Assembly: GCF_964204865.1 (NCBI RefSeq)
Contig: NC_135250.1
Location: forward strand, 19,149,395 to 19,213,394
From: Styela clava
Taxonomy: Eukaryota > Chordata > Ascidiacea > Stolidobranchia > Styelidae
DNA: 64,000 nt
Reading direction: 5' to 3'
Shown here: positions 14,051 through 51,800 of the stretch, piece by piece
Position numbering within the stretch: the first letter of the stretch is position 1
How the letters are laid out: the number at the start of each line of letters is the position of its first letter
Translations under genes and position numbers: made by a program
Notes under the pieces: generated by a model
Database searches by the model: none
Seen by the model: the letters and a program-made list of their open reading frames with translations, nothing else
What the model was told of the DNA's origin: nothing

Positions 14051-14058
14051 GTTTAGAT

Positions 14059-14464
14059 CAGGGGTCGGCAAACTACGGCTCGCGACGCTTCACTGAATTA
14101 TATTAACTAAACAGCCTTATTGACGAATATATTCTTTATGTGACAAAATTTGTTTTGAGAAACTAAATTATACTATAACCTAACAAGTATATAATTCACA
14201 ATCACTCGTTTAATGAGCCTATAATTGATTATAATTAGAGAAATGGCAACAGAACGTAGAAAAGTTGATGCTGAGCGCAAATGGTTTAATGACGCTGACA
14301 ATATTCAAATGATCAGTCTTCGCGCACTGCTTGAAATTTCTGGGTGAAAAATGTGATTCATTGGCCATTCCTTTGGTTTTTAACTTTCTAAAATACGTGC
14401 TACCCGCAAATGACTTGCAACCTTTAATTTTGGCCCGCAAACGACAAAAGTTTGCCGACCCCTG
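14059..14464 (+). mobile_element. hAT-type MITE h, copy 1 (complete, with 8-base duplication)
   Basis: The left end CAGGGGTCGGCAAACTACGG and right end AGTTTGCCGACCCCTG are inverted repeats. The element is flanked by GTTTAGAT (14051-14058) and GTTTAGAC (14465-14472), an 8-base target duplication typical of hAT transposons. Inside, after ATGGCAACAGAA, the plus strand encodes ERRKVDAERKWFND, which resembles the N-terminal RKVD.E...FN segment of GTF2IRD2/ZBED-like hAT transposases. The frame then breaks. Related copies lie at 19628, 21545, 23732 and 26895. Confidence 0.88.
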
Positions 14465-15935
14465 GTTTAGACTTTAGAGCCAGTGAAGTTATACAGTCAT
14501 CCCAACTCAAATCCTCGACCCACTGCCCTATCTTCCCTCCACTTTCCTATTCTCGATCCTCTGCTCCACCTCTCTCAACTTTCCTATCCTTGACCCACCG
14601 CCCTATCTCCCCCAAACTTCCTATCCCCTTCAACCTCTTTCTCCTCGAGTCATTGCACTATCCCCCTCAACTTTTCTTTCCCCTATCCACGGCACTATCT
14701 ACCTCAAATCTCCCACCATCGATCCACTGTCCGACCTCTCTAAACTTACTTATCTTCGACCCACGACGCTACACCACTCAGCACCTAACCTAACGGCGCT
14801 ACAATCACGACACGATCGTCAAAATGAACTCTACCATCTTGCAACCAACTTCAATGTGTTATACTGGTCGAGTATGCCAATGAGATGATACAATCGTACG
14901 TGACAAAACATGATTGACGGCATTCGTAAATGTAGGCTGGAATTTCAATTGGTAATCAATAACCATAATTAGTGGCTTAAAAATGTGCTACTAATTAAGC
15001 TACTCATTACATCGGGTTTGAGGCGACTGTTTTTAAAATTTTGAAAGGCCGTTCGATTTCCACATACCTGAGTTCATTTTTAGAAACTCATTCGATGTCG
15101 CCTGTATTTCTGTGCAAGGCAAAAAGATGAGGAAATAATCAAATAGTTGCACGCATAGTCATTTTCAACGAATGTTCTGCCATATTCTGTTGTATATACA
15201 GATTTCTTTTACGTGACTGAGAAGGCTGAAAAGTCAAAAACAGTAAAAAATATAAGTCGCTCAGTGAGTGTAATCCCTTCCAAACTATTTTTAAGCCATG
15301 AAATGTTTTGTCGTAGCTAGCGTTGCAACTGCCTTTTGGTTCAGCGTATAGTCCCAAAATTGAGCTTATCTTATCTGCAACTTCATGAAGTTGCAAAGGA
15401 CGCAGTTAGCACGTAATCTTCGGCACTACAAAATGTTGAAGAAAAATACTTTATATGGACCAGAGCACTATTGCTTATTTCAGATCAGCATCATATTGTC
15501 ACAAGACTCACGACATGGCCAATTATTAAGGGCATAAAACGGCTTGTGGAAACTTAGAAAACTGCTATTCCCAACAAAAAACCATCAGTAGCCCAATTAG
15601 TGAAACATTTTTAAACTACCAATTAAGGTTATTGTTTACTAATTAATATTCCAGCCTACATATAGGGAATGCTGTCAATCATGTTTTGTCGACGTACGAT
15701 TGAATCATCTCATTGGCATACACGACCAGTATAACCCATGGCAGTTGGTCGCAAGATAGTAAAGTTCAGTGTGGCGATTGGGTCGTGAATAAAGCGCCGT
15801 TAGGTCAGGAGATAGGTAAGTTGTGGCAGATAGGGCAGTGGGTCCGAGGATAGGTAGGTTGAGGGGAATAGGGCAGTTGGGTCGAGGATAAGGAAGGTTG
15901 GGGGAGGTAGGGCGGTGGGTCGAGGACAATTTTAA
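14465..15935 (+). repeat. Composite element T, copy 1, with inverted 37-base minisatellite arms
   Basis: The left arm (about 14500-14780) is a C/T-rich minisatellite of about 37-base period with core CGACCCACTGCCCTATC. An inner stem follows (GATACAATCGTACGT...CATGATTGACGGCATTCGTA, to 14945), then a 700-base centre, then the same stem inverted (15645-15720) and the minisatellite inverted (15780-15935). The whole is a large interrupted palindrome. The proline/serine/leucine-rich open frames in the arms are translated minisatellite, not genes. Confidence 0.85.
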
Positions 15936-16834
15936 GTGTCTTTAACGGAGAACCCGAAGTCTACGTAGTAGGATATAACAATGCGAACAACTAAGTAACG
16001 AATGTTTCCCCGATTTTTGATCTCTTGAATTCTTCCTCTTTACACTCTACCATTGCAAAATTATTGGTACTTTTCATTTCAAGAATGGTTTTGCGAGTTT
16101 AGGACTTATATTTACCAAAACACAACTAAAATCTAACAAATAACACGCGAAAACCGACAAAACGAGCTAATATCACAACCACGAAAGGCCTGAGCACTTC
16201 TGAAACGTTTATTGTTACTTCAATTTTGCACTTATTCTGATTGGCCAATGTTACGGCAGTAAATAAGGAAGTGTATACTCGGGGAAACATTCATAATTAT
16301 AATCAGAGATTTATAAAGTTGTTATACATAATTACGCTGCACAGACGCGATGCTCGTATTTATGGAAAATTTAAATTGTTTCGCGACCCAGAGCGGAGGG
16401 CTTCGCGACCCAATTAGACTGCACTGGAGTACACCGAGCACGATTTGCCTGATATTTGATAGGTAAACTTTCCAGAGAAGAAGGATTACATACCAAAGAG
16501 TTATGGAATGAAGTACTTTGCAAAGTAAGAGTAATAAACTGCAAAAAAATGTAACTATATGGAGGGAGAAAGCAACTATCAGGAAAAGGAAATTTCGGAA
16601 GTTGATTTGTATAAATTGCAAGTAACTTTATCGATTTTGTATATTTTTGTATGAATATAACATAAATTTAATATACAGGTATGTAAAAAATGTCTTAAGT
16701 GTTTATATCTTTGGCCCGTATTCGATAATGAAGAATTTTTTTTTGGTGGAGGACTAATCAGTTTAGCGAATTGACAAAAATAGGTCCAAGGCATGGCCTA
16801 TTCAAAGAATGAAAAATGATATTTTGTATGCAAT
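15936..16834 (+). repeat. Block S, copy 1
   Basis: It starts at GTCTTTAACGGAGAACCC and ends where block B begins. It is nearly identical to 25035-25968; the main difference is a loss of about 25 bases near 16185 (CTGTCTGTCTGAATGGCAAA is present only in copy 2). It contains an ATTGG/CCAAT palindrome (GATTGGCCAATG at 16239) and a hAT-end-like segment, TTCGCGACCCAGAGCGGAGG to CAATTAGACTGCACTG (16379-16425). No supported gene. Confidence 0.85.
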
Positions 16835-19255
16835 AGAACACACCAAGGAGATGCAGAAAGTATTCACTCCTCGCTTGCCCATTATCTTTTGTGAATTTTT
16901 GTGTTATTCACGGTGTTTTACAATTGCAAATATATTATTTATGTCAATATTTCTTGGAATATCACGCCATCTTAGGTAAACGACAAGGCAGCCTCACTGT
17001 GTCATACGATGTGATAGTATGACCATACCCACATGGTGCGCAGCCAGGATTTTCAAAAAGGGGGGAGGGAGTCTACATCGGAAATTCTCTTCTGAAACAG
17101 ACCCCGCGATTACGCGCCCGGCGTATAATGACTTTTCTGTCATGAAAAAAATATTCATCAATCCATGACAACTACGCGAATCTAAGATGTCTTTCTATAT
17201 CAATTTAATTCTGTTCAACGTAACACGCGTCTTCTTACGACGGGATAAAGAATTACTACTCTGAAATAGTTATTTTGCCCAATGCACGACATTGAGGGGG
17301 CGAAAATACATACTAAACGACCTTTGATCTGAAAACATACTGATTAGAAACCACGTAATGAAAGATGGCATCACTGCACGTTTTGAAATTAGTTGCAAAT
17401 GCAAAAAAGTGTCTTTTCCGTCTTTCAGCTTGACGTACGAAGCATTGGTTGCGGTGTTAGGAACCGCGCTCAGATTTCGGACAAAAAAAATATATATAAT
17501 TTTATATGACACCGGATTTCGAAATAGACTCAGTATTAACAAGGAAAATTGGCGATTCCGACGAATACAAAATTTCTGGCTCAGGAAAATTGGATTCCAA
17601 CTAAAAATATATATATAATATGCCAATCACCGACTTCGCAACACGAGACACAGCCGTCATTCCCTTGATTTGATCACATGAAATAATAGTGGTGCGTCAG
17701 TAGGTAACAGTGGCGCGGGAAGGGGATTCGGGGTCGCCGTGGATCTATGGACATAAAAATAGGAGATGAACTGACGGTTTATATTTAGTTATAATCTTAA
17801 GATATGATATAAAATCCCATATAGTACAATTTAATTTATACCAATAAAAATACATATACTAGTAAATCAAAAATACATATTCATCGCCTCGAAATCCCCG
17901 CGGTCGCCGCGTCATTACTCTAAAATACCACGGCAATCCGTACATATAATAACGTGTGGTGAACTACTCGATTATATATTGTTTTGATCCGTATTTTTGC
18001 CATTTTGCGAATTCGACAAATTTGAGCTGTACTTGCAACATTGACTCCGCTCCATAGCAATGCTGCCTTTCAGGTTATTTTAAAGATATGCTCGTTTGAG
18101 AAATCCCTAAATCTGCTATAAAATCTCATTTTAGAACTATAAAATTGATTGAGTATACTTCAGATTATTTATCTTATATAAGCTTGTATATTTTCAACAC
18201 GATAAGTTCCGCGCACAATTGACTGTTTCGTTTTCAGTGACGGTACGGTTTCCAACGCCAACCAAACATAATGTGTGAAATTTCCCGATTAACAATGCCT
18301 AGAGCAGGGGTCCGCAACTACTTTTTAGCGCGACCCAAAAAATTTTTTTTTAACTTCTCGCGACCCAAGCATTTGGTAAACATGTAATTAGTTATCGATT
18401 CTAAGACTATTGTCGACACTAACATTTTTCTTGCACAAAATTATATGAAACTTATCACATAAATTGTGAATAATAGCGTTTATTATGACTAATGCAAATT
18501 ATAAGCTTTGTGTATAATACACAACATACCAAATCGAGATTTAATTTGGGAGACGGCAACTCGAAGATATTTTACTACCTCTAGCCTTGATCTGTAATTG
18601 TATTTTATGAAAACGCTGATAGGCGGGAAAAATGTATTGTTTTTTAATGAATTTTTGATGCTTTGCTGTAAGATACACGTGAAACCAATCTTTATACATT
18701 ATTCGCTGGCATTCCGCTTATATGTATGGTTTAAGTGATGTATTTCTATCCGATGAGGGAGAGAAGAGAGTGATCCGTACGGAGGCTCAGGGCTCCGCGA
18801 GCTATTCGTTCACTTAAAAAACTGACTTGGTTAATTTTGTATCTGTGATGAAGCATTGTCATTAATAAAATTTGACGACGGTGGTGTCGAAATGTGGTAG
18901 TGATTCAAATATAACATTATCTATAACTAAGGGCGCAGCAGCCGTGGTTTTCTAAAAGAGAGGGGGTTCAGAATAGAAAATTTCCGAGCAACACTCATCG
19001 CTCAATCCATGGCCGACCCGAGAATTTAAAATGTCATATCAATTCTATTGTGTTCATCGTTGCTCGCCTTTGAGTTAACTAATATACTACGGCAACCATG
19101 AAATACTTGTAAAACCGTATACTAGCAATGAATGGATTGAAATCGTATTTTTGAGTTGCTCTTTCAGCACTTAGAATTATCGCAATGTTTCGTTGTTAAG
19201 GGAGAGTTTGCAGTTATGAAGCCAATTATATTTGATACCTTCATATCGAATTGGG
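16835..19255 (+). repeat. Block B, copy 2
   Basis: High-identity duplicate of 11395-14040, lacking the segment equivalent to 11580-11720 and with scattered small changes. For example, it gains an A-rich frame at 17358-17618 that is not conserved as coding in the other copy. It is followed by about 80 unrelated bases and then a truncated T arm. The ends of the duplication differ from copy 1, where a complete h element follows. Confidence 0.85.
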
Positions 19256-19344
19256 TCTATGAATAAATGTATCAGTGATTTCTAGATGCAGTGATGGGAC
19301 AAATATCGGCCGACTCAGTAAAATGATCAAACTTTCATTAACCC

Positions 19345-19627
19345 TAGGGTTTCCCCTTCAACCTCTTTCTCTTCGAGTCATTGCACTATCTCCCTCAACT
19401 TTTCTTTCTTCTATCCACTGCACTATCTGCCTCAAATTTCCCACCCTCGATCCACTGTCCGACCTCTCTCAACTTACTTATCTTCGACCCACGACGCTAG
19501 ACCAGTCAGCACCTAACCTAACGGCGCTACAATCACGATACGATCGTCAAAATGAACTCTACCATCTTGCAACCAACTTCAATGTGTTATACTGGTCGAG
19601 TATGCCAATGAGATGATACAATCGTAC
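19345..19627 (+). repeat. Truncated T left arm
   Basis: C/T-rich minisatellite units followed by the inner stem word ACTGGTCGAGTATGCCAATG and CAATCGTACGTCGA. It then joins abruptly to the inside of an h element at 19628. Only the left arm of T is present. The junction differs from the one shared by units at 21545 and 23732, so this piece arose by a separate rearrangement. Confidence 0.8.
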
Positions 19628-21544
19628 GTCGATGAGCCTATAATTGATTATAATTAGAGAATTGGCAACAGAACGTAGAAAAGTTGATGCTGAGCGCAAA
19701 TGGTTTAATGACGTTGACAATATTCAAATGATCAGTCTTCGGGCACTGCTTGAAATTTCTGGGTGAAAAATGTGATTCATTGGCCATTCCTTTGGTTTTT
19801 AACTTTCTAAAATACGTGCTACCCGCCAATGATTTGCAACCTTTAATTTTGGCCCGAAAACGACAAAAGTTTGCCGACCCCTGGTTTAGACTTTAGAGCC
19901 AGTGAAGTTACACAGTCATCCCAACTCAAATCCTCGACCCACTGCCCTTATCTCCCCTCCACTTTCCTATTATCGATCCTCTGCCCTGGCTCCCTCGCCT
20001 CTGCTCCACCTTCCTATCCTTGACCCACCGCCCTATCTCGCTCAACCTTCCTATCCTCGACCCAATGTCCTATTACCCTCAACCTTCCTATCCCCTTCAA
20101 CCTCTTTCTCCTCGAGTCATTGCACTATCTCCCTTAACTTTTCTTTCCTCTATCCACTGCACTATCTGCCTCAAATCTCCCACCCTCGATCCACTGTCCG
20201 ACCTCTCTCAACTTACTTATCTTCGACCAACGACGCTACACCACTCAGCACCTAACCTAACGGCGCTAAAATCACGACACGATCGTCAAAATGAACTCTA
20301 CCATCTTGCAACCAACTTCAATGTGTTATACTGGTCGAGTATGCCAATGATATGATACAATCGTACGTCGACAAAACATGATTGACGGCATTCGTAAATG
20401 TAGGCTGGAATCCCAATTGGTAATCAATAACCATAATAAGTGGCTTAAAAATGTGCTACTAATTAAGCTACTCATGGCACCGGGTTTGAGGTGACTGTTT
20501 TTAAAATTTTGAAAGGCCATTCGATTTCCACATACCTGAGTTCATTTTTAGAAACTCATTCAAAGTTGCCTGTATTTCTGTGCAAGGCAAAACGATGAAG
20601 AAATAATCAAATAGTTGCACGCTTAGTCATTTTCAACGAATGTTCTGCCATATTCTGTTGTATATACAGATTTCTTTTACGTGACTGAGAAGGCTGAAAA
20701 GTCAAAAACAGTCAAAAATATAAGTCGCTCAGTGAGTGTAATCCCTTCCAAACTATTTTTAAGCCATGAAATGTTTTGTCGTAGCTAGCGTTGCAACTCC
20801 CCCTTAGTTCAGTGTATAGTCCCAAAATTCAGCTTATCTTATCTGCAACTTAATGAAGTTGCAAAGGACGCAATTAGCACGTAATCTTCGGCATCGCTTT
20901 TACTATAAAATGTTGAAGAGAAATACTTTATACGGACCAGAGCACTATTGCTTATTTCGGATCAGCATCATATTGTCACAAGATTCACGACATGGCCAAT
21001 TAATAAGGGCATAAAACGGCTTGTTGAAACTAAGAAAACCGCTGTTCCCAACAAAAAACCACCAGTAGCCCAAGTAGTAAAATATTTTTAAACTACCAAT
21101 TAAGGTTATTGTTTACTATTTAATATTCCAGCCTACATATACGAATGCTGTCAATCATGTTTTGTCGACGTACGATTGAATCATCTCATTGGCATACACG
21201 ACCAGTATAACCCATGGCAGTTGGTCGCAAGATAGTAAGGTTCACTGTGGCGATCGGGTCGTGAATAAAGCGCCGTTAGGTCAGGTACCGAATAGTATAG
21301 CACCGTAGGTCAAAGATAGGTAAGTCGTGGCAGATAGAGCAGTGGGTCCGACGATAGGTAGGTTGAGTGGAATAGGGCAGTAGGTCCATAAGAGGGAGGT
21401 TAAGGGAGATAAAGCGGTGGATCGAGGATGCGAAAGTTGGGGAGATATAGCAGTGGGTCGAGGATAAGGAGATAGCGTAGTGGGTCGAGGATAGGAAGGT
21501 TGAGGGAGATAGGGTAGTTGGTCGAAGACAGGATATTTGAGGGA
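19628..21544 (+). repeat. h-T tandem unit 1
   Basis: A 5'-truncated h element (19628-19885, from ATGAGCCTATAATTGATTA to TTTGCCGACCCCTG) is joined to a complete T: left minisatellite arm 19915-20250, stem 20330-20405, centre to 21120, inverted stem 21130-21215, inverted minisatellite 21290-21540. The unit is about 1.9 kb and is followed by two more units of the same design. Confidence 0.85.
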
Positions 21545-23731
21545 GATACTATAACCTAACAAATATATAATTCACAAGCACTCGTTTAATGAGCCTATAA
21601 TTGATTATAATTAGAGAATTGGCAACAGAACGTAGAAAAGTTGATGCTGAGCGCAAATGGTTTAATGACGTTGACAATATTCAAATGATCAGTATTCGGG
21701 CACTACTTGAAATTTCTGGGTGAAAAATGTGATTCGTTGGCCATTCCTTTGGTTTTTAACTTTCTAAAACACGTGCTACCCGCCAATGATTTGCAACCTT
21801 TAATTTTGGCCCGCAAACGACATAGGTTTGCCGACCCCTGGTTTAGACTTTGGAGCCAGTGAAGGTATACAGTCATCCCAACTCAAATCCTGGACCCACT
21901 GCCCTATCTCCCCTCCACTTTCCTATTCTCGATCCTCTGCCCTGGCTCCCTCGCCTCTGCTCCACCTTCCTATCCTTGACCCACCGCCCTATCTCGCTCA
22001 ACCTTCCTATCCTCGACCCAATGTCCTATTACCCCCAACCTTCCTATCCCCTTCAACCTCTTTCTCCTCGAGTCATTGCACTATCTCCCTCAATTTTCTT
22101 TCCTCTATCCACTGGACTATCTGCCTCAAATCTCCCACCCTCGATCAACTGTCCGACCTCTCTCAACTTACTTATCTTCGACCCACGACGCTACACCACT
22201 CAGCACCTAACCTAACGGCGCTACAATCACGACACGATCGTCAAAATGAACTCTACCATCTTGCAACCAACTTCAATGTGTTATACTGGTCGAGTATGCC
22301 AATGAGATGATACAATCGTACGTCGACAAAACATGATTGACGGCATTCGTAAATGTAGGCAGGAATCTCAATTGGTAATCAATAACCATAATTAGTGGCT
22401 TAAAAATGTGCTACTAATTAAGCTACTCATGGCACCGGGTTTGAGGTGACTGTTTTTAAAATTTTGAAAGGTCATTCGATTTCCACATACCTGAGTTCAT
22501 TTTTAGAAACTCATTCAAAGTTGCCTGTATTTCTGTGCAAGGCAAAACGATGAGGAAATAATCAAATAGTTGCACGCTCAGTCATTTTCAACGAATGATC
22601 TGCCATATTCTGTTGTATATACAAATTTCTTTTACGTGACTGAGAAGGCTGAAAAGTCAAAAATATAAGTCGCTCAGTGAGTGTAATCCCTTCCAAACTA
22701 TTTTTGAGCCATGAAATGTTTTGTCGTAGCTAGCGCTGCAACTGCCCTTTAGTTCAGCGTATAGTCCCAAAATTGAGCTTATCTTATATGCAACTTAATG
22801 AAGTTGCAAAGGACGCAGTTAGCACGTAATCTCCGGCATCGCTTTTACTATAAAATGTTGAAGAAAAAAATTTATACCGATCAGAGCACTATTGCTTATT
22901 TCGGATCAGCATCATATTGTCACGAGACTCACGATATGGCCAATTATTAAGGGCATAAAACGGCTTGTTGAAACTAAGAAAACTGCTATTCCCAACAAAA
23001 AACCATCAGTAGCCCAATTAGTAAAACATTTTTATACTACCAATTAAGGTTATTGTTTACTATTTAATATTCCAGCCTACATATACGAATGCTGTCAATC
23101 ATGTTTCGTCGACGTACGATGGAATTATCTCATTGGCATACACGACCAGTATAACCCATGGCAGTTGGTCGCAAGATAGTAAAGTTCACTGTGGCGATCG
23201 GGTCGTGAATAAAGCGCCTTTAGGTCAGGTACCGAATAGTATAGCACCGTAGGTCAAAGATAGCTAAGCTGTGGAAGATAGGGTAGTGGGTCCGAGGATA
23301 GGTAGGTCTATTATTGTTTACTATTTAGTATTCCAGCCTACATATACGAATGCTGTCAATCATGTTTTGTCGACGTACGATTGAATCATCTCATTGGCAT
23401 ACCCGACCAGTATAACCCATGTCAGTTGGTCGCAAGATAGTAGAGCTCAGTGTGGCGATCAGGTCGTGAATAAAGCGCCGTTAGGTCAGGTACCGAATAG
23501 TATAGCACCGTAGGTCAAAGATAGGTAAGTTGTGGCAGATAGGGCAGTGGGTCCGAGGATAGGTAGGTTAAGGGGAATAGGGCAGTAGGTGGAGAAGAGA
23601 GAGGTTGAGGGAGATAAAGCGGTGGTTCGAGGATGCCAAAGTTGGGGAGATATAGCAGTGGGTCGAGGATAGGAAGGTTGAGGGAGATAGGGCAGTGGGT
23701 CGAAGACAGGAAAGTTGAGGGAGATAGTATA
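21545..23731 (+). repeat. h-T tandem unit 2
   Basis: It begins inside h at CTATAACCTAACAA directly after the inverted minisatellite of unit 1, the same breakpoint as at 23732. The h part ends at 21842. T then runs with left arm 21880-22205, centre 22370-23080 and right stem 23080-23170. The right arm is itself duplicated: the stem and arm recur at 23310-23731. The unit is about 2.2 kb. Confidence 0.85.
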
Positions 23732-25034
23732 ACCTATCAAGTATATAATTCACAATCACTCGTTTAATGAGCCTATAATTGATTAGAATTAGAGAAATGG
23801 CAACAGAACGTAGAAAAGTTGATGCTGAGCGCAAATGGTTTAATGACGCTGACAATATTCAAATGATCAGTCTTCGGGCACTGCTTGAAATTTCTGTGTG
23901 AAAAATGTGATTCGTTGGCCATTCCTTCGGTTTTTAACTTTCTAAAATACGTGCTACCCGCCAATGATTTGCAACCTTTAATTTTGGCCCGCAAACGAAA
24001 AAAGTTTGCCGACCCCTGGTTTAGACTTTAGAGCCAGTGAAGTTATACAATCATCCCAACTCAAATCCTCGACCCACTGCCCTATCTCCCCTCCACTTTC
24101 CTATTCTCGATCCTCTGCTCCACCTCTCTCAACCTTCCTATCCTTGACCCACCGCCCTATCTCCCTCAACCTTCCTATCCTCGACCCACTGTCCTATTTC
24201 CCCCAACCTTCCTATACCCTTCAACCTCTTTCTCCTCGAGTCATTGCACTATTCCCTCAACTTTTCTTTCCTCTATCCACTGCACTATCTGCCTCAAATT
24301 TCTCACCCTCGATCCACTGTCCAACCTCTCTCAACTTACTTATCTTCGACCCACGACGCTACACCACTCAGCACCTAACCTAACGGCGCTACAATCACGA
24401 CACGATTGTCAAAATGAACTCTACCATCTTGCAACCAACTTCAATGTGTTATACTGGTCGAGTATGCCAATGAGATGATACAATCGTACGTCGACAAAAC
24501 ATGATTGACGGCATTCGTATATGTAGGCTGGAATATTAAATAGTAAACAATAACCTTAATTGGTAGTTTAAAAATGTTTTACTAATTAAGCTACTCATGG
24601 CATCGGGTTTGAAGTGACTGTTTTTAAAATTTTGAAAGGCTATTCGATTTCCACTCACCTGAGAAACTCATTCAATGTTGCCTGTATTTCTGTGCAAGTC
24701 AATCATGTTTTGTCGACGTACGATTGAATCATCTCATTGGCATACACGACCAGTATAACCCATGGCAGTTGGTCGCGAGATAGTAAAGTTCAGTGTGGCG
24801 ATCGGTTCGAAAATAAAGCGCCGTTACGTCAGGTACCGAATAGTATAGCACCGTAGGTCAAAGATAGGTAAGTTGTGGCAGATAGGGCAGTGGGTCCGAG
24901 GATAGGCAGGTTGAGGGGAATAGGGCAGTAGGTCGAGAAGAGAGAGGTTGAGGGAGATAGAGCAGTTGGTCGAGGATAGGAAGTTTGAGGGAGATAGGGC
25001 AGTGGGTCGAGGACAGTAAAGTTGAGGGAGGTCG
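23732..25034 (+). repeat. h-T tandem unit 3, centre deleted
   Basis: It starts at the same h-internal breakpoint as unit 2 (TATAACCTATCAAG). The h part ends at about 24020, with left minisatellite arm 24055-24365 and stem to 24535. Most of the centre is missing (24535-24700), followed by the inverted stem 24702-24780 and inverted arm 24840-25030. It passes straight into block S copy 2. Confidence 0.85.
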
Positions 25035-25968
25035 AGGACAATTTTAGGTGTCTTTAACGGAGAACCCAAAGTCTACGTAGTAGGATATAACAATGCGAAC
25101 AACTAAGTAACGAATGTTTCCCCGATTTTTGATCTCTTGAATTCTTCCTCTTTACACTCTACCATTGCAAAATTATTGGTACTTTTCATTTCAAGAATGG
25201 TTTTGCGAGTTTAGGACTTATATTTACCAAAACACAACTAAAATCTAACAAATAACACGCGAAAACCGACAAAACGAGCTAATATCACAACCACGAAAGG
25301 CTGTCTGTCTGAATGGCAAAAGTATCTGAGCGCTTCTGAAACGTTTATTGTTACTTCAATTTTGCACTTATTCTGATTGGCCAATGTTACGGCAGTAAAT
25401 AAGGAAGTGTATACTCGGGGAAACATTCATAATTATAATCAGAGATTTATAAAGTTGTTATACATAATTACGCTGCACAGACGCGATGCTCGTATTTATG
25501 GAAAATTTAAATTGTTTCGCGACCCAGAGCGGAGGGCTTCGCGACCCAATTAGACTGCACTGGAGTACACCGAGCACGATTTGCCTGATATTTGATAGGT
25601 AAACTTTCCAGAGAAGAAGGATTACATACCAAAGAGTTATGGAATGAAGTACTTTGCAAAGTAAGAGTAATAAACTGCAAAAAAATGTAACTATATGGAG
25701 GGAGAAAGCAACTATCAGGAAAAGGAAATTTCGGAAGTTGATTTGTGTAAATTGCAAGTAACTTTATCGATTTTGTATATTTTTGTATGAATATAACATA
25801 AATTTAATATACAGGTATGTAAAAAATGTCTTGAGTGTTTATATCTTTGGCCCGTATTCGATAATGAAGAATTTTTTTTGGTGGAGGACTAATCAGTTTA
25901 GTGAATTGACAAAAATAGGTCCAAGGCATGGCCTATTCAAAGAATGAAAAATGATATTTTGTATGCAA
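25035..25968 (+). repeat. Block S, copy 2
   Basis: Nearly identical to 15936-16834, with an extra CTGTCTGTCTGAATGGCAAA stretch at about 25300. It runs into block B copy 3 with the same junction as copy 1 (AATGATATTTTGTATGCAA then GAACACACCAAGGAG). The shared S-B junction shows that S and B were duplicated together. Confidence 0.85.
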
Positions 25969-26585
25969 AAGAACACACCAAGGAGATGCAGAAAGTATTC
26001 ACTCCTCGCTTGCCAATTATCTTCTGTGAATTTTTGTGTTATTCACTGTGTTTTACAATTTATGTCTTATGTCAATATTTCTTGGAATATCACGCCATCT
26101 TAGGTAAACGAAAAGGCAGCCTCACTGTGTCATACGATTAAGCCGTCTTATCATCGCTTTAGCAGTTTCAACGACCGTTTTAGTGATTTAACATATTGTT
26201 AAGGAAGTTGAAGTAATTTTTTCAGGCTCTCGCTGGACTTTGTTAATTACGGACATTACATATTCGTGATGATAGGGGTGCAAGATGTGATAGTATGACC
26301 ATACCCACATGGTGCGCAGCCAGGATTTTCAAAAGGGGGGGAGGGAGTCTACATCGGAAATTCTCTTCTGAAACAGACCCCGCGATTACGCGCCCGGCGT
26401 ATAATGACTTTTCTGTCATGAAAAAAATATTCATCAATCCATGACAGTAACAGTGGCGCGGGAAGGGGATTCGGGGTCGCCGTGGATCTATGGACATAAA
26501 AATATCAAAAATAAATCAAAAATACATATTCATCGCCTCGAAATCCCCGCGGAACGGATTCTGAAACAGTCGCCGCATCATTACT
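25969..26585 (+). repeat. Block B, copy 3 (truncated, internal deletion)
   Basis: Matches the start of B, including the 140 bases lost from copy 2. At about 26445 it jumps from the ATTCATCAATCCATGACA part to the AACAGTGGCGCGGGAAGGGG part, skipping about 530 bases. It ends near the hAT-like end at 26592. Confidence 0.8.
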
Positions 26586-26591
26586 CTAGAA

Positions 26592-26790
26592 CAGCGTTTC
26601 CCAACTGTGTTCCGCGGAACACTAGTGTTCCGCGATCGTCTCCAAAGTGTTCCGTGGGAAAGGAATCAAAAATACGTCTAAAATGGTCGCCAAGGCTATC
26701 TATGGAACGTGAAGTTGTCGCACAAGTGACCGTTCGATATCTCGTCAGCGCCGGCCTAAAATGGACTAACTAGGGTGGGGTAGTGATATT
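26592..26790 (+). mobile_element. hAT-like end, second type
   Basis: CAGCGTTTCCCAACTGTG followed by the inner palindromic words TTCCGCGGAACACTAG and TGTTCCGCG is a typical hAT terminal region. The opposite end and the target duplication are not visible, so it is probably a truncated element inserted next to block B copy 3. Confidence 0.6.
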
Positions 26791-26894
26791 TTCGTTAACC
26801 TTCGGCCTAGCCTGTTGACTGTTAAGTTCATTATCAGTAATCAGTTTACAGCAATCCTTTTGATTTTGCTATAGGCGAACAAGTAGGTCTAAAG

Positions 26895-27312
26895 CAGGGG
26901 TCGGCAAACTACGGCCCGCGGGCCAGATACGGCCCGCGGAACAATATAATCCGACCCGCAACGCTTCACTCAAATATATTAACAAAACAACTGTAATGAC
27001 GATTATATTCTTTACGTAACAGAATTTGTTTTAAGACACTAAATTATATTATAACTTAACAAGTATATAATTCACTATCACTCGTTTAATGAGCCTATAA
27101 ATTGATTATGATTAGATAAATGGTAACAGAATGTAAAAAAGTTAATGCTGAGTGCAAATGGTTAAATGACGCAGAAAATATTCAAATGATCAGTCTTCGC
27201 GCTGCTTAAAATTTAACTGAAATCTGTGTGACAAAATGTGATTCATTAGCCATTCCCTCGGTTTTTAACGTTCTAGAAATATGTGCAGCCCGCCAATGAC
27301 TTGCGACCCTAA
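26895..27312 (+). mobile_element. hAT-type element h, copy 5 (intact left end)
   Basis: The left end CAGGGGTCGGCAAACTACGG continues into CCCGCGGGCC, a better preserved version of the h1 end. The interior matches h1 (ATTCACTATCACTCGTTTAATGAGCC, RKVDAE-like coding remnant now with frame breaks). The right inverted repeat is absent: the match fades after CCGCCAATGACTTGCGACCC. Confidence 0.8.
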
Positions 27313-28289
27313 ATTTTTGAAGTAAGTTATGTCTCAAATTTACAATAAATTGGGATCTGGTCCTATTACACTGGCTTAGGATGCAACAGAATTAAAAAAA
27401 GGAACAGTTTCTTTATTCAAATTTGAACACAATATTTTTTTGCTACATTCAGAATTCCCAACAAAGGTTCAAAATATATTGCAACAACATGTAAACACAA
27501 TTCAAATTTTCCAACCAAACATGCTTAGCAAAAATACACTTTGTTTGAACTTTAGTACAGCTCTTTCTGTGGTTGTATCATATTCATAACCATCTGAAAT
27601 ATATTGAGAAAAACATACATGATAAATAAGGTGCAATGCAAATTTTTGAATATAATACCTATGCAGAACAGCGAACGAATGTATAAAAATTGAGCTGATT
27701 TTAGGAATAAACGCTTTTACAGTCGTGATGAATTGATTTTGCTTTATCAAATACGACATAGCTCATTCTTAATTTTCTATTAGCCTGCTTAAATAATCAC
27801 CTTTAGACATGTGTGTTCACATGTTACAGCTTGAATATGTTTCTGTTCCCTGGATTTTTGATGGCACGCAATGGCCCGGCTCACATTCGTTAGTTGGAGG
27901 CAATAAGTTCACTGAGACTGTTTCCCTGTTTCACAGACCGATATAAACTTCATCATTGTTCATGTTTTTTATGTAAATATTATATAGGTATTACTGTAAT
28001 ATATAGAATCGAAAAAGGCAATGAACATTATATATGTTAAACAACCATGTCATATCAGTATTTAAGAAACTTCGTGTCATTTGCTGTACATACTGAAATA
28101 TATAATATAATATATGATTGTCTGAAATCAACATGTTTTGTTATTTCATCATTGGAGTCTTTTGACCCAATGCTATATTTGAAAGGTGTGTCGTACTCTA
28201 TTTTGTGAAGCAACAGCTCAAACTCGCGTATGAAAAGCGATAGAGCCGCGTCCCCTCAAAGTAAGGTAAAAGTAGTATCTGGCAGCCGT

Positions 28290-28540
28290 CACGGTCCGAT
28301 GGTTGGTTTGAAAGTTGGTAATGGACCTCTCCCCGAGCATCGACTTCCTTGTTTACATTGTGACATTGGCCAATCAGCAAGATGCAAAAAGTGACGTAAC
28401 AATGTTCCCTTTTCGCATCCGCTCACACTCTTTTCTTACTCAGACAGATTTTTAAGCGTGGTCGTAAACATTATCTCATTTTCGCGTTTTTGAACTCTAT
28501 TCGTCAGTTTTCAGTTGTGTTTTGGAAACTTAAATATAAA
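28290..28540 (-). repeat. Diverged inverted copy of block S
   Basis: Read on the minus strand it follows block S: CTGTCTGAGTAAG, then GCTGATTGGCCAATGTCAC, then AAGGAAGTCGATGCTCGGGG, against CTGATTGGCCAATGTTAC and AAGGAAGTGTATACTCGGGG in S. Divergence is clearly higher than between S copies 1 and 2. The CCAAT box and CRE-like TGACGTAA (28392) therefore belong to the repeat. Whether they act as a promoter for the gene at 30033 is unknown. Confidence 0.65.
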
Positions 28541-28819
28541 TCAGATAATTCAATGATCACTCTGTCTTCCTAGGAGTTTTAATTTAATTGCAGTAATAAA
28601 AAATTAGTGTAGAAATAGCTGTGATAGACCAGGCTAAAATTCTTTACCGGTACTTTTAAAAAAACAGATTGTTGTATGCGATGAATCATAATGATGGTTT
28701 GCAACACATACCCCATTTACAGGCGCCAACTCGCAAAAGCACTCTTAAAATAGCCCCGAAAATTTTGCAATGGTATAGGAAGAAATTTTCGGGTGTCAAA
28801 GGTCGGGGAAAGGTCCATG

Positions 28820-28990
28820 CATCGTGCGTCAAGCTAAAAAAACGGAACACTTTTTTACAAACTGATCTTAAAACGTGCAGTGATGCTATCTTTTATTACG
28901 TGGTTTCTAATGAGTATGTTTCCAGATCAAAGGTCGTTTAGTATGTATTTTCGCCCCCTCAATGTCGTGAATTGGACAAAATACCGGTGG
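28820..28990 (-). repeat. Inverted fragment of block B
   Basis: Reverse complement of the segment near 12000-12160 and 17275-17450. Landmarks on the plus strand are AAACGTGCAGTGATGC, TTACGTGGTTTCTAATGAGTATG and GCCCCCTCAATGTCGTG. The match is close. It shows that this family also inserted, or was duplicated, in the opposite orientation. Confidence 0.75.
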
Positions 28991-28999
28991 AAATATTAC

Positions 29000-30032
29000 A
29001 CGTAGCCCAAAGTAGAGCTGCACAAGTGTCGATTGTGGAGTCGTTTATGTTGGTATTTTGCAGTCGTGAGGCCTTTACCAGACAATCGAGTCAAAGCGCC
29101 CACAGATAGAAACTAATGCATTGTATTTGTCGCTGTGTTGGCTACATATACAAGAGGAATATTGACTATGTTACCGGCATGTCTGTCACGAAGTTCTGAC
29201 GTTTATTGCTATTTCGTCGCACATCGAAATATATTGGAAGCAGTCAGTCTTTTGTTATCGGACGGTCAACGGAAGTACTGCTTAATGACGCACTTTGCGT
29301 CATATGACTGGACCCACGTTGTTAACTTCATTTCCTTTCATTGTCTTAATTTTACTTCGGTTGCCAGCTTCGACTAATGCAAATGGGTTTTGACGCAAGT
29401 GGGTTACGGCGAAAGAAATGATAGTATCTACTACTAGTTATTACCAAAAAGGAAGAGCTGTCAACACCTAGCCCACTACCGCTAGTTGTTTCGCTTGGCC
29501 ATCAAACATCAGGGTGATTTTTTTTAAAGTCGGTTAGAAGCTGTAGTCGTAGAATTGCGGTTTATATCAGTCCGTAGAATATTTTCATGAAATTGAAAAA
29601 AATAATTTAGGAAATATTCTGACAAAAAATATGCCTTTATGAAATATTGCACTGACGCAGCGAATTACAATTGCAAGTATATATTTGCTTCAAAGATTTG
29701 AAGAGAAGTCTGATCATAGATTGTACGCTATCTGATTTTTTCGGCAGTTGAGAAATGGCAGTGTTAGTCTGGCCAGCCAAAGCCAAATTTATAAACTTTT
29801 ACTTCTTTGAATCAAATTTTGATTATAATAAATGCTTGAACAAATATATTAAAAAATTGTATTCAAACCTCAAATGTATGTACGTATGTTTATTTGACTC
29901 AAATATGTAACAGTATCTGCATAATAATCAAACAGTATAACAGAGACGGGATACATGTTCAAGACCTTACTGGCCTAAGACGCAGACGTGCGACATGCAT
30001 TCCTAACAAGTATACCTGAAGTGTTGACTGAA
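29000..30032. other. Region upstream of the CUB receptor
   Basis: No supported exon. An 80-codon open frame at 29135-29377 has no splice or domain support. At 29286-29302 the arms TGACGCA and TGCGTCA form a small inverted pair around CTT, resembling CRE/AP-1-type half-sites, but there is no TATA or initiator context to back a promoter call. Confidence 0.45.
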
Positions 30033-33000
30033 ATGGCTGTATGTATTGTTGCGAATTTACACTTGTTACACATTGTTCTTGTTTCAGCTGCTAGAGTTTT
30101 TATTGTGAGAATGGGAAATGAATGCTCCGTGATACGAGGTGGTAATACAGAAGCTACATTATCATCATTGACCGGAACCATAGCTTCCGCTACTAACTAC
30201 GACGATGATGAAGAATGCAAATGGTCATTCAATCCAAACGGGCTGCAAACGGACGTCATGACCATTGCCGTGACGTCAACAAATGTTGAATGTGATAAAG
30301 CATCTTTCAAAATACATGGTACTCGAATTAAACCTCACACATTTCTTCGTTTTTTAGATCTAATAAAATTTTTGGCACCAGATGTTTTAAAGTTTAAAAT
30401 TATTTGTGGAAGAGAATAATTCTTCAACCCGTAATCGTGATATTTTAGCAAACCGAAATTCGAGATTTTCAAATATACAAAATATGAAAACCGATATCCA
30501 TTTACTTATAAATAACACGTTTTTATTCAAAATAACTGCAAAACATAGATTATCAATCGTTTAAAACGTGTAGGAAAGATTTCTTGCTATCGACTATAGT
30601 AGGTCGAAAAAAATTCGCTTCGTTGACTAGGTCTTATTTTAAGGGGAGGGCTTATATTAAAATGATTTTCAAAATTCAGGCTAGGTCTTATTTCCAACAG
30701 GGTAGATCTTATTTTCGGGGAAACATGGTAGTTACCATAGCAAGGGTTATGATTACTCTAACTTCCCAGTTGCAATCAATACAAAAGTCAATACAACCAA
30801 TTTATTATTGATGTCTTGCAGTATTGAAATTACCGTGTTAACTTATTAGAAAATCTTGTCACAAATATAAAAGTAAAAATTTATATATATATATATCCGA
30901 TGATAATATTCTGGCATGACGTAATGTCATAAAACTGGTTTCAAATAATCATAATCAAAAGCAAGTATTTAATTGACAATGACTTCATTTTCTGGTACCC
31001 CCCGCCCATAGGTTTCCGTCCCTCTACACAACTTGATGTAAAGTAGGCAAACAAAATTAGTTACCATATTGGTATACATTCTTCTGGAGCGCCAATTTTT
31101 TTAATCTACAGTAATTTCTTGACCACGCCACCCCTAAATTGGTTACGTCTTTTATTATTGGTAAAATTGAAACGCAAAATAGTTAAAACGCGTATCCGGC
31201 GTTAGAAGCTGTTTACATTAAAATTGTGGTATTGGTTATTATTAATACTTTTGACCTGGTTTATCGTATCTTTTTTCAGGAAATCAATACTGTGACAAGA
31301 CCAATTCATTTTGTTTAATATTCGACCGTGGAAACTGCAATGGAAATTACAATCCGCACCAATGCCATATTACAAATATTGATTCATTTCCTTCCATTCA
31401 ATTTCGAGGCAAAGACGATGCGAGAAACAAGGGATTTTCTTTGACATATACTTTTACAAACTGTGATAAACTGAGTTAGTATTTTATATATGTATTTAAA
31501 TGTTTACAATTTTAATGTTTTTGGCATGCTATGCTTATAAACAAATCGTATAATGCATGCAATATGTATTATAGATATTTTAGTCATTAATTGCCCAAGC
31601 TAAATGATAATTAGCAAAAAAAAAATAGGAAATCATTCAGAACAATCAAAATGGGCAAGGTTTTATATTCATTCTAGTATATAAATCGTCGTTGATTTGA
31701 TAAAGCTGTTCCCAAATGACTTCAGAAATTTGCATATCCTTAAATTGACCTACACGTCTGGCTACTGGGGTGTTTTTGTGTGCTTATCATTGGGAAATAC
31801 CACTATATGATTTGTATCTTGTGTACTTTAATTTTTCTACAATTTACATTTTAACAGCTGAACCGACAACAACTACGGCGTATATACCGACAACTACTTT
31901 TACTTCTACGGAAGATGACTCCACAGCGCTTGGAACATTCACTCAATCTTTGACAAGCATAAAACCGTTAAATTTCACCTCACAATATTTTGAACACAAC
32001 ACCTCTGTTATTACCTCACAACCTGAAACAACAATTGGAATTGAACCTACAACGGCATCATCTACAGGTAATCTGAAATATATATAACACCAGAGATTAT
32101 TCCATTACGTATCATCAATATAGCAGTGCGGTATCTAGAAATGAAAAAGTGGGTATGGTTATTGAAAAATAATGAAAATTGATCAGAAACGAATAATACG
32201 CTTTGTCCAATGCAAATTTCAAATTCTAATTGACGCATCCTCTGAATCTCTTCCTATGTCGAATTTCACTTTACCTTTGTAGCTTTTTGAGTCGTTTCAA
32301 TTTTATATTCACTTTTTCCAATAAAATTCGATCTGCATTTGTTACGATTCCACTACGTTTTCGTTAAATTACACGGAAGCTGTTGTTCAGGTTACGTTAT
32401 CATTTATATCCTGAGACCTCTCGTCCGTTACCAGTCCATCTCGTGCATGGGAATATATATCTATACCTATAGATATTCGTTCCAGGTGCATTGGTATGAG
32501 ATCATGTCAAAGGTAGTACCTCCGATTGAACCTCATGTGTTCAAACCGGAAACTTTATATTTGTGTGACCTCGAGTATATTGTCTGTACGTTATTAATAA
32601 AATGTAAATAGTTTCCGCCATTAAAGGAACTAGTGACAGGCAGTGGTGCAGATGGGAAATATTGCTTCGTCATTAAAATTAGGCCTACTAACGGTTCTTT
32701 TCATCTAATGTTTCAGGATCGACAATCGTCGCAGGCCAATTGAATATTATTGTAATACTGCTACCGATACTGATTGTCATATTTCTTCTCGCTTTTATTC
32801 TACTAATAGTTTTATGTATGAGGTAAGTTGATAAATATCTCAAAACTCAAGAAATCGGACACTTTTGGACACTTACGGCTTTGATTCAAATCCTACCCTT
32901 TAAAACTTGCGCAAAGCATGATCAGAATTACGGGCGAACACTATAATTCCAAACTTTACTGGAATTATATAAATTTACGGTGGTGCATTGAGTGCTAACA

Positions 33001-34831
33001 AATGCCGTTTGGCCCGAGACATGAAGCATCTTAAGGCAATACGATCAGGAAAACAGCTATGGACAATGATTCCCACACAACCGAAGTTCATGGAAAAAGC
33101 ACACAAAAATTTATTTGTCAAATACCAAACCATGTTCTATTTAATGATAAAAGTACATGCTTCACATCAAAACGGCTGGAATGGCTTATTTTGTTATTAC
33201 TTATCGATCTTGATCGGTAAGTATGTTGATAGGTATTTGTCTGTTTGTCTGTATGCCTGTGTGTTAGATGCACGCGATATCTCACGAAAGCGAGGTTCAA
33301 TCTGCTCCGAAGTTTGCATGTGCATTCATCTTAGCTCGGATCAGAAGCCTATTGATTTTGGATGGATTATGTCGTATAATTAGCGAGTTATTAATTAATT
33401 AGTGATGGGACACACGGTGTCACTATGGAGTAAGACCACTGTTTTGGGAGATCCCCTAACCTTCGATCGATAATTCTTCGGTTTCCAACCGAATTCTAGT
33501 TGTTATATTGTCTTTGAAGTATAAATGATTACACACCCGACTATCACAAAATCCATCTTGTTGGTCGGTATTATATTAATTTGTTGTATGTTCACATTTG
33601 TTGCTGTGAATGCAAACGTAGATGTATAAAACAAAGTACGACATTTCGGCGAATTAGGTTGTGTAGCTACAACGTAAATATTGAATGCATGACTATACGG
33701 TAATTATATATTCCTCAAAACCGCATACCATACATACATTTGCATCTGTTATACACAAGTGTTTCTTGATTGAAACCACACATTCATAATATCCAACAAG
33801 AGAGCTATGCTCAAATATATAGACACGTAGCGCCACCCGATGGCAATAATTTTGATGACGTCATAGCGGGAAAAAAAGTAATACCCTTCTGGAGAAAAAT
33901 TTTATCTTTAACCACTGAAAATTTCAAAGCAATTGGTCCAGTATTCGAAGCGAAAAGCGATTTTTTAAAAATGATGGAGACAAATAACGATAACAACAAA
34001 ATTTTGAAACGATCGTTATGTCCACTAAACGTGTCCAATAAGACTTCCGCATACAGTTAGACAATAGACTACATGTAAAATACTGGGTGAGAAATTGTGG
34101 TGGCCTGTGGTATTTAATTGTGGTATCTAAAATTATATATGTACAATTTTAGACGACGAACGGCAAAGAAATATTTGAACAATACACCTCATTTGACCAC
34201 CACTATAGGCGAGGATTACGTCGCAGCCGATGACATCATAAATGGTCAACGTAACACTACAATGGATTTCGACCAATCGTATGAAACTATTCCGCAAGGG
34301 AGATCACAACCAGACATAGTTCCGATATATTCTGTAGTGGAGAAATCTCCTGGCGTCGTAGATTCGAGTCAAAGTTACGAAACAATAACATTCCCGAATA
34401 AGAATGTTGAAGTAAACAATCCCACATTCAAAAATATGCAGAACCATGTCTCTCGGCCGACTGCGGTGTATTCTGTCGTACGCAAGAAACCAAAATCTTC
34501 AGGCCGCAATATTATCATCAGTAGCCACATACCGGATACCATCGTAGAGTCCAACAACGAAAATCAATACGTAGCTGCCGGTGACGTCTTAGATAAATTG
34601 GCCGAGCAGTCTTATGAAGAAGTTGCCATCGGAACGGCACGAGAAAATCACTCAGCATTCGACAAACCTGAATTGTATTCTGTTGTCACTCCCATGCCAA
34701 AAAATGCTATAGACGAGGAAGGAGTCACATACGACAATCCATCGTTCATGGAGGATGAGTACAAGAGTATCGATGGTGGTAACACAGATAATTTTTCAGA
34801 TTCTGTATATAATAGATTATCCAGATGTTGA
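30033..34831 (+). CDS. CUB-domain receptor with multi-tyrosine cytoplasmic tail, 5 exons
   Basis: Unrecognised single-pass receptor. Exons 30033-30318, 31280-31474, 31858-32067, 32717-32822 and 34153-34831 join in phase to 491 residues. Residues 1-20 form a signal peptide. About 30-157 form one CUB domain (EECKWSF at the start of strand 3, GFSLTYTFTNC at the end, cysteines throughout). Residues 161-232 are a Thr/Ser/Pro-rich stalk with NFT and NTS sequons. Residues 240-264 are the membrane helix, followed by RRRTAKK. The tail, coded by one exon, has SH2-type motifs at Y288, Y309, Y325, Y341, Y372, Y405, Y420, Y441, Y459, Y469 and Y485 (SYETI, IYSVV, VYSVV, SYEEV, LYSVV, VYNRL) and two NPxF motifs. 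Y309, Y325 and Y341 are 16 apart. An alternative start is at 29988; a hidden 5' exon is possible because CTTGTTTCAG precedes 30089. The signalling role is inferred from the motifs. Confidence 0.85.
30628..30730 (+). mobile_element. DNA-transposon end fragment
   Basis: In intron 1 of the CUB receptor. Repeated AGGTCTTATTT words end in ATTTTCGGGGAAACATGGTA, a terminal sequence common to a widespread class of non-autonomous DNA transposons (ends of the type TACCGTGTTTCCCCGAAAAT). The other end is not evident. Confidence 0.5.
31000..31093 (-). repeat. Dispersed repeat R, copy 2
   Basis: Minus-strand copy of R in intron 1 of the CUB receptor. The reverse complement gives GGCGCTCCAGAAGAATG, GTAACTAATTTTGTTTGCC and TTTACATCAAGTTGTGTA, then GAAACCTATGGGCGGGGG, where the match ends. 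Confidence 0.8.
33200..33430 (+). repeat. Dispersed repeat Q, copy 1
   Basis: In intron 4 of the CUB receptor. Landmarks are CGATCTTGATCGGTAAGTAT, GGTATTTGTCTGTTTGTCTG, GATATCTCACGAAAGCGAGG and TTAATTAGTGATGGGA. The same unit occurs inverted at 40670-40845, in intron 2 of the SLC9B2 gene. It has no reading frame; it may be the 3' part of a retroelement, but class cannot be fixed here. Confidence 0.75.
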
Positions 34832-48855: not shown

Positions 48856-51800
48856 TTATATAAATATAGAAGTGTTGACTTGATTCCCGCTGTTTTGTTG
48901 TAGTTCGGCTCTAGCTTGAAATAGTTGGCGCACGAGAGCAGCTTTTTCTTTTTGTAGTTGAACGACTTGGTCAGATTTATCCGAGACTTCCTGTTAAATA
49001 ACAAAAGCAAATGTATATGAATCAGTAACAGAGGGCTCATTGGCACGATAAGGTACCATCCAATAAATAAGAGAGTAATATAATACAAACAACAGAGTAA
49101 TTCTTAAATATATGGACATGGAGGTCGTGCGTCGGTATGGGTAAGACTTAAAAACGGAATTTGCAAAAAAAGCATCGACGGGAAAGTTATAAGGTTGCGA
49201 AAAAAACGCAATCCAAGGTGTTTTCCTTTGACTTGAATAAAACGGCAAAATTTTGAGTGAATTATATAAAGGTACTATAAAACTCGAAAAATCAAATTAA
49301 TGTAAAATAACCCTCTAGCGACTTCCTCCACCTTCAAGTACTGGAAATTTAAATTTGATTGGCCCACTAGTTGCAGGGAAAATGTCCAAAAACCAACCAC
49401 AACAACAAGAATAACAACAAAAAATTACAAAACGATCCATATGGAACCAAGTTAAACATGCGATGTTCTTAGGCATGCCAAACTACACCATTGTTCATTG
49501 AAACAAATTATCTTACCCTTGTTAAGAGTTGATTGTGGTCTCGCAGTGTTGTGATAGTCAAAGATTGTTCTTCGCTTTTTCCGTTGTTAACCTGCGCCAA
49601 ATGTGTAGAACAGTATAATGAATTAGTAAGGCTTGGATTCCGGATGGTTTTAATTTAGAATTAGACGAATTCTCATGTTTGAAAATGCAAATACGAATAT
49701 ATCATTAATATTAACGTGCTTACCTCAATAGTAGCAGTGCTTGTAAATAGTGTTTGTAGCTGAGATACGGTATTCATCAAGGATCTCATCTGTTTTTCAG
49801 TTTCTGCAATGTTATCAAGACGATAATCTGCGGAACCAGGTTCTGGAATAAAATTGAATATGCTGCTTAAAAAACATCTCATCATAGTCGATATAGGCGC
49901 ATTCCTCAACTCTGTAATTTTTATTGGGAACGAAAGGTCATAAAGACGTCTTGTTCCACCTTTCAGCAATGATTTCCAATCTCATTTACAATACATGGTC
50001 CCGTTTCACAGTTTTGAAACCATATATACTACCATAGCACAAAGGGTATCAAACAATTGAACGTATATACTCAATCCCACTATTCGGAGTCAATGCAGCT
50101 CGTTCCCTTGAATTTCTCCATTAACGTTTCAAAATTCTTCCTCAGGAATTTTTTTCACCCAGTTAGAAAATATAATTGAAAGTGATCCTCGCTGCTAACA
50201 ACAATACCTGTTTTACATATATCTTCGGATGATGTTGATCTTCCTACAGAAAGAGATCCTTTGTTTATTTTTAAATTGATTTGATTCTGTCTTTCATTGA
50301 TGTTATTTAATCTTCTTTCAAACCATGATTTAGTCGAATCTATTGCCTGTAGTCCTTGAAGCAACAACTTCTTCTGGTCATCAAGCTGTTTCATATATTT
50401 GATCTGTAAAGAATACAAGATCTTAAAACTGGGTTCCGAGAAATTCATGCGTGATGCAAGAATGCATTTGGCGGAAAAAGACTTAGACCGAAAACAGACC
50501 TTTACGGCAAGTAGTACAACATTTTTGGTGTATGTATTATGTATCAGTTATCAGTCGTGTCAAAATTTTATTTTTTTTTCCACAGTCATTGTGTCAATGT
50601 GCCATATATCATGTCTAAACTCAAATATCAACCGTCCCAATTATCACAGCAATTTTTTGTTTTTAACGTTAATAGAAAACATACGTCGGAATAGGAAATC
50701 TGAATTCGTGATTATTACCAATATCGCAATCATTCAAAAAGGGTCGGTATGAAAATATTAAAGATTTCATGTAATTTCAGTCACTCATTGCATACCGTAT
50801 TATAATCTATTCCTGTAGCAACTGTGTGTCGACGAATATTTCTTCTCTGTTGTATAGAAGCACTGTTTGCTCGGCGTCTTATCCCTGAAGCTGCCGAAGT
50901 AGAAACAGTAAATGGTGGTGTACTTTGTTCCTGATTTTGAGAACTTCTGGAATCTGAATCATTTGGTAAGAATTCTTTATAGTGGGTTTGACCTAACGTG
51001 CACTAGGACGAAGAAGTGTAATCAAATTATATTCATATGATAGTATAAATAACCTAAATTCTTTCAGAATGAAGTAGGTATCTTACCTGAAGGAGAAGTG
51101 AAAAGTGCTTTTGCCACATTCTCTATAGATCTAGGAGATGTTGCCGCCGACGAATCACCGTTTGAAGTTGATGACGACATAGATCCATGAAGATTTAATT
51201 TGGGAATTTCTGTGACTTCCGCTCGGCTTGAGCTCCTGTAAAAAATTGATATATTATTACTGAACAAGGTATTTTCAACATAAATTTTTACTGAAAATAT
51301 TTCGTAAACCGGTTCTAAATCAAGTCTGCCAATGAATACACGGTACCTTGAAGTCAGTCAACTTTAGAAATACGACAATACTCTATCTTCTACCGTAACG
51401 GTGAAAAGACCAAGTCGTCCATTTTAATCGCACAATCAATATTGTAAAAAAAACTAACCGTGCGTATTTAACAATGGGTATTTCGGGTGGAGAAGAACTA
51501 TTGCATCGTCTTCCGTGTCCTTCATTGTTTGGCCGATTTTCGTTGATTTGGGTAATTTCATCTTCGCCAACCTTTCCACTGTTGCTCTCTATCGCTCTCT
51601 TGCGATCGAGCTGGTCACCAGAATGCAGTTTTCTGCACAAAAATGGAACATTAGTTTGGATTAGAAGACTAAAAGTTGTATATTTGAGCAAATTCTTACC
51701 CGGTTGCTGTGTATAATGAATGCGCATTTCTCGAAAATCGACTCGAAGCCGCTGATCTTCCCATTGTCGAAAACGAATTCATGGACGCGGAAATCACCAT

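Follow-up and report, generated by a model that had tools for sequence, protein, structure and literature searches.

According to PMC4395315, CDCP1 combines extracellular CUB domains with one membrane helix and a tail whose tyrosines include YxxI/L sites (YAVI and YGHL); this tail is phosphorylated by Src-family kinases, and the YAVI and YGHL sites bind SHP2. DCBLD1 and DCBLD2, as described in PMC6029619, likewise join a CUB ectodomain and a helix to a scaffold tail in which tyrosine motifs recur 7-8 times, are substrates of Fyn and Abl, additionally contain LCCL and FV/FVIII domains, and recruit CRKL via YxxP. Here we describe a five-exon gene of the ascidian Styela clava, located on the forward strand within a stretch of 64,000 nucleotides of contig NC_135250.1 (positions 19,149,395 to 19,213,394; assembly GCF_964204865.1), hereafter called the window. 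The interpretation that we favour, with moderate confidence, is that its product is a phosphotyrosine scaffold receptor with a single membrane pass, belonging to a small family of tunicate proteins, which would resemble CDCP1 and DCBLD2 in action while being a member of neither. The initial annotation had proposed a phosphotyrosine-signalling surface receptor, possibly related to immunity or allorecognition, without a described family of this architecture. Its membrane receptor plan (a type I membrane protein with one CUB-like ectodomain and a stalk rich in threonine and serine) and its excess of Yxx[ILV] motifs were borne out, but an identity based on immunoreceptor tyrosine-based inhibitory or activation motifs (ITIM, ITAM) was not. 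The lack of a described family was overstated, as receptors of the CUB-membrane-polytyrosine kind that are Src-family kinase substrates have been published, namely CDCP1 and DCBLD1/2; the details of the gene are new, and the family may be new as well, but its kind is already known.

CDCP1 has three potential CUB domains, five tail tyrosines and 836 residues, whereas the window protein has one CUB-like domain, a Thr/Ser stalk and a tail with 12 tyrosines arranged in recurring motifs; the two are set apart by description, as the sequence comparison covered PDB chains and gave no match. The likeness lies in the window tail, which holds candidate YxxI/L sites. The difference from DCBLD1/2 consists of the missing LCCL match (49 matches genome-wide, 0 within the window) and the missing YxxP array (one Y..P in the tail, compared with 0.74 expected). 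The ectodomains that define CDCP1 and DCBLD1/2 are thus not found here, because the window has a single CUB, where CDCP1 has three, and is free of LCCL matches. A single helix and a multi-tyrosine tail are also features of LAT-type transmembrane adaptors, although LAT is almost without an ectodomain, unlike the window protein. Within the ascidians, PMC12065747 describes the fester co-receptors (FcoR) of Botryllus as type I proteins with IgV, sushi and two C2 Ig domains, with 53 loci so far. FcoRs carry ITIM and hemITAM motifs, and their long tails can hold a Y-x-x-I/L/V core motif, the function of which is given there as unknown. The family described here differs in its CUB-like ectodomain and its at least three members, and neither Ig nor sushi domains were found on the window protein (Pfam, E≤10). 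The same text reports homologues of LAT and SLP-76 to be absent from ascidian genomes, which lends interest to a receptor whose multi-tyrosine scaffold is built in. Among the matches listed for the open-access literature (titles and abstract openings), none reported this architecture in tunicates.

The five exons join in consistent phase (0/1/1/1/2) into 491 residues free of stops, as had been annotated (Table 1). The membrane helix is unambiguous, with a 19-residue Kyte-Doolittle mean of 3.6 at residue 241, and the predicted Thr/Ser stalk was confirmed by a Thr+Ser content of 44% in the stalk exon. The open reading frame (ORF) of the tail spans 237 residues from stop to stop, compared with a maximum of 213 for the longest ORF in 200 block shuffles; our shuffle controls preserve composition only. 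All eleven tail tyrosines listed in the annotation are present at the claimed residues, and a twelfth (Y273) lies immediately inside the membrane. The claim that most of the eleven occur as Yxx(I/V/L) also stands: eight do, with 2.15 expected (P=5e-5), the others being Y288 and Y405 (both YVAA) and Y459 (YDNP). An acidic context preceding the tyrosines (P=4e-4), two NPx[FY] motifs (P=0.004) and a single match to the ITAM form Yxx[IL]-x6-12-Yxx[IL], with x12 at its loose limit (P=0.03), were found with tests chosen after the tails had been seen, so that these P values, like that for YSVV in the tail of paralogue B (see below), are optimistic. General consensus forms were used for ITIM, ITAM, the switch motif ITSM, YxxPhi, YxN, NPxF and Src sites, as well as for the CUB pattern. 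Copies of the recurring motifs were selected for agreeing residues, and their low nonsynonymous figure is partly by construction. Internal duplication of the tail was considered and rejected, as the best self-match was equalled in 50 of 500 shuffles. Searched against the genome, the tail exon matched itself only, and no confirmed relative was obtained from viral and prokaryote contigs (4 and 19 pattern matches).

Two further loci on contig C3, paralogues A and B (325 and 474 residues joined), have the ectodomain in common with the window gene (0 of 1000 shuffles for each). Exon 2 detects paralogue B genome-wide with E=3.2e-4, and the reciprocal search from B gives 8.1e-4. Both loci repeat the plan of the window gene, with exons in the order CUBa, CUBb, stalk/helix and a single many-tyrosine last exon, matching intron phases and a membrane helix. 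The exon-1 donor lies at the same residue (K-I-x-G) and in the same phase 1 in all three genes, and the phase-2 end of the helix exon is also common to them. Paralogue A has one phase-1 intron fewer, because its stalk and helix are in a single exon; the stalk exon of paralogue B has the same place and phase as in the window gene. No excess of Yxx[ILV] was detected in the tails of A and B, one of which terminates in IYSVVSK. We conclude that the gene is very probably real and belongs to a small family derived from CUB proteins, its tail having been shaped around tyrosine motifs; the family comprises at least three genes in this genome. A possible fourth locus on C13 (E=0.28) was taken as chance, because it has one internal stop and neither strand offers coherent exons. 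Exons that could encode signal peptides, with donors in phase 1, occur upstream of paralogue A (L034:5209-5251, MKTLRGIVVYVIMI) and paralogue B (L036:2417-2474, MYVFLICILGTLVVYVPDC).

From its sequence, we take the extracellular domain to be CUB-related but divergent. CUBs abound in this genome, with 150 scored matches, and a native profile was therefore made from 17 of them, which score 32-127 bits in leave-one-out tests. Joined exons 1 and 2 scored 22.5 bits against this profile (E=7e-6 in a set of 1004 sequences, with no more than 10.6 bits reached by any of 1000 shuffles) and covered positions 10-109 of its 109, while the single exons scored 10.2 and 10.5 bits and the entire 491-residue protein 18.1 bits. 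When 1212 window ORFs of at least 30 residues were scored, exons 2 and 1 led (10.2 and 9.3 bits), with the next at 6.6; a second CUB domain was not found among them, the sole two ORFs above 9 bits being the halves of one CUB. Alignment of the joined ectodomain with the CUB profile by hhalign gave 46.6% (E=2e-4), which is less sure than the profile score. The CUB signature GTIASATNYDDDEECKWSF is present in the exon 1 part, although two of the three places where the pattern occurs in the window are not CUB (0.18 occurrences expected per shuffle). Below threshold, Pfam PF23062 (CUB) matched the whole of exon 1 with E=0.021 and a hand-picked piece of 49 residues with 0.012; exon 1 of paralogue A matched CUB_2 (0.036), and exons of paralogue B matched Fn3 (0.0025) and Sushi_2 (0.0051, exon 2 alone). 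AlphaFold models of the single CUB exons had low confidence (pLDDT 40.7 and 48.7), and nothing was drawn from them. Twelve further half-domain CUB matches were used for intron places only: by eye, ten of them have an intron in phase 0 after D-[YF]-[VLI]-x, and alignment by eye places the CUB intron of the window gene and both paralogues ~7 nucleotides later, in phase 1.

Table 1. Features of the CUB-like receptor gene; positions refer to the window.
Feature	Position	Strand	Remarks
Exon 1	30033-30318	+	Open in frame; first 55 nucleotides (30033-30087) doubtful
Candidate signal peptide or intron end	30033..30087	+	MAVCIVANLHLLHIVLVSA; both models stand
CUB-like domain, first half	30088..30318	+	Part of exon 1, ends ECDKASFKIHG; both paralogues have a homologous exon
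Exon 2	31280-31474	+	Second half of CUB-like domain (CDKTNSFC, GFSLTYTF)
Exon 3	31858-32067	+	Thr/Ser-rich stalk; N-glycosylation sequons at residues 199, 208
Exon 4	32717-32822	+	Membrane helix; Kyte-Doolittle 3.6; donor 99.9 percentile
Exon 5	34153-34831	+	Whole cytoplasmic tail, 226 residues; 12 Tyr, 8 Yxx[ILV]
YVAA copy 1 (Y288)	34217..34228	+	Recurring motif
QSYETI copy 1 (Y309)	34274..34291	+	Recurring motif QSYE[TE][IV]
YSVV copy 1 (Y325)	34328..34339	+	16 residues past Y309
QSYETI copy 2 (Y341)	34370..34387	+	Recurring motif QSYE[TE][IV]
YSVV copy 2 (Y372)	34469..34480	+	Recurring motif
YVAA copy 2 (Y405)	34568..34579	+	Two synonymous changes compared with copy 1
QSYEEV copy 3 (Y420)	34607..34624	+	Recurring motif QSYE[TE][IV]
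YSVV copy 3 (Y441)	34676..34687	+	Recurring motif
TYDNPSF (Y459)	34727..34747	+	YxN and NPxF combined
YKSI-x12-YNRL (Y469, Y485)	34760..34819	+	Loose ITAM spacing; SVYNRL also matches ITIM consensus

Several observations qualify the model of a CUB receptor encoded by these five exons. Pfam gave no CUB on the full protein at E≤10, nothing on the joined ectodomain and no CUB on exon 2, and a PDB sequence search gave no match at E≤10. It is because Pfam gives no CUB, yet the native profile does, that we rate the annotated CUB domain as divergent. Cadherin_C_2, the best Pfam match of the full protein (E=0.0098), was below the cut-off and was rejected. The ATG at 30033 is a doubtful start, as position 30088 is preceded by a phase-1 acceptor of the 99.3 percentile. 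The annotated signal peptide has an open frame and a modest hydrophobic core (10-residue mean 2.39), but this acceptor offers an intron end as the alternative; both start models stand, because the search from 20000 to 30088 revealed no convincing upstream exon for a signal peptide. The homologous exon of paralogue A can likewise start at a phase-1 acceptor, albeit a poorly scoring one (-2.8), and a good acceptor was not found at the start of that of paralogue B. By general splice matrices, whose scores are rough, the donors of exons 1 and 2 are mediocre (82nd and 65th percentile), as are the acceptors of exons 3 and 5 (74.5th and 67th). Such sites would fit a model that had fused CUB exons and a tail exon from separate genes. 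We consider this very improbable, as two other loci keep the CUBa, CUBb, stalk/helix and many-tyrosine exons with matching phases, and the CUB-profile scores of the joined halves are additive.

The tail motifs themselves could have another function. In an endocytic or cargo receptor without signalling, the Yxx[ILV] motifs would be YxxPhi signals for adaptor protein (AP) complexes, the consensus of which they match, and the two NPx[FY] motifs would bind PTB/FERM sorting proteins; YDNPSF is similar to an LDL-receptor-type signal, and CUB domains are also known from endocytic receptors such as cubilin. However, eight Yxx[ILV] motifs, three recurring motifs, the acidic context and the x12 spacing exceed usual sorting needs, and only 3 of the 9 tyrosines in tail A are Yxx[ILV]; we regard this explanation as unlikely, but as the strongest competitor of a signalling scaffold. 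A receptor of the ITIM/ITAM type with an immune or allorecognition role, akin to the FcoRs, is in our view less likely still. PMC12065747 places the core Y-x-x-I/L/V in FcoR tails and pairs FcoR1, which has this motif, with the activating uncle fester, and the window tail has one ITAM-spaced pair and one SxYxxL. Yet the ITIM form [ILVS]xYxx[ILV] is not enriched in the tail (1, with 0.59 expected; P=0.46), ITSM and hemITAM each count 0, and the Ig and sushi domains of FcoRs were not among the Pfam families of the window protein.

For the favoured phosphotyrosine scaffold receptor, we propose that the divergent CUB-like domain, atop its mucin-like stalk, would bind a ligand or partner on whichever cell type may express the gene. 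Clustering driven by this ligand would lead to phosphorylation of the tail by Src-family, and possibly Syk-family, kinases, and the recurring YxxI/V sites (QSYETI, YSVV, QSYEEV and the x12-spaced pairs) would then dock several SH2 proteins simultaneously. In addition, YDN may bind adaptors, and NPxF may bind PTB or sorting proteins. A more far-reaching idea, speculative and improbable, is that tunicate receptors have a LAT-like scaffold built into the tail, with ligand-clustered CUB receptors, in animals reported to lack LAT and SLP-76, carrying a multi-site docking platform on fast-changing tails in which the tyrosines are kept and the surrounding sequence is not.

Elsewhere in the window, a galactose-3-O-sulfotransferase exon is present at 7876-8181 (+; PF06990, E=9.7e-16). 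Positions 12655-25625 hold direct and inverted repeated segments and a 37-bp minisatellite, overlapped by several long ORFs, of which neither 14487-14885 (+) nor 16325-16627 (-) matched a Pfam family. Exons on the reverse strand matching Suppressor_APC (PF11414) and SAPC2_N (PF25825), at 50158-50547 and 53974-54438, probably belong to one SAPCD2-like gene. In the genome, dense CUB clusters are found at C3:15.71-15.81 Mb, C19:9.35-9.39 Mb (open frames up to 898 residues), C3:8.18-8.22 Mb and C2:23.99-24.11 Mb. At L038:1232-4170 (C9), a cellulose-synthase-like exon is followed ~1.8 kb downstream on the same strand by an exon for a GH6 hydrolase. Among animals, the fusion of a cellulose synthase with GH6 is characteristic of tunicates, and this pair of exons agrees with a tunicate genome.

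Should the tails prove to be phosphorylated, tunicates would own a CUB-type phosphotyrosine receptor family that is separate from the Ig-type fester co-receptors, which is relevant to ascidian SH2 signalling without LAT and SLP-76. Because the ectodomain escapes standard libraries, genes of this kind may have gone without annotation elsewhere among the tunicates. Three concrete genes are now on hand for tests of expression, alleles and SH2 binding.

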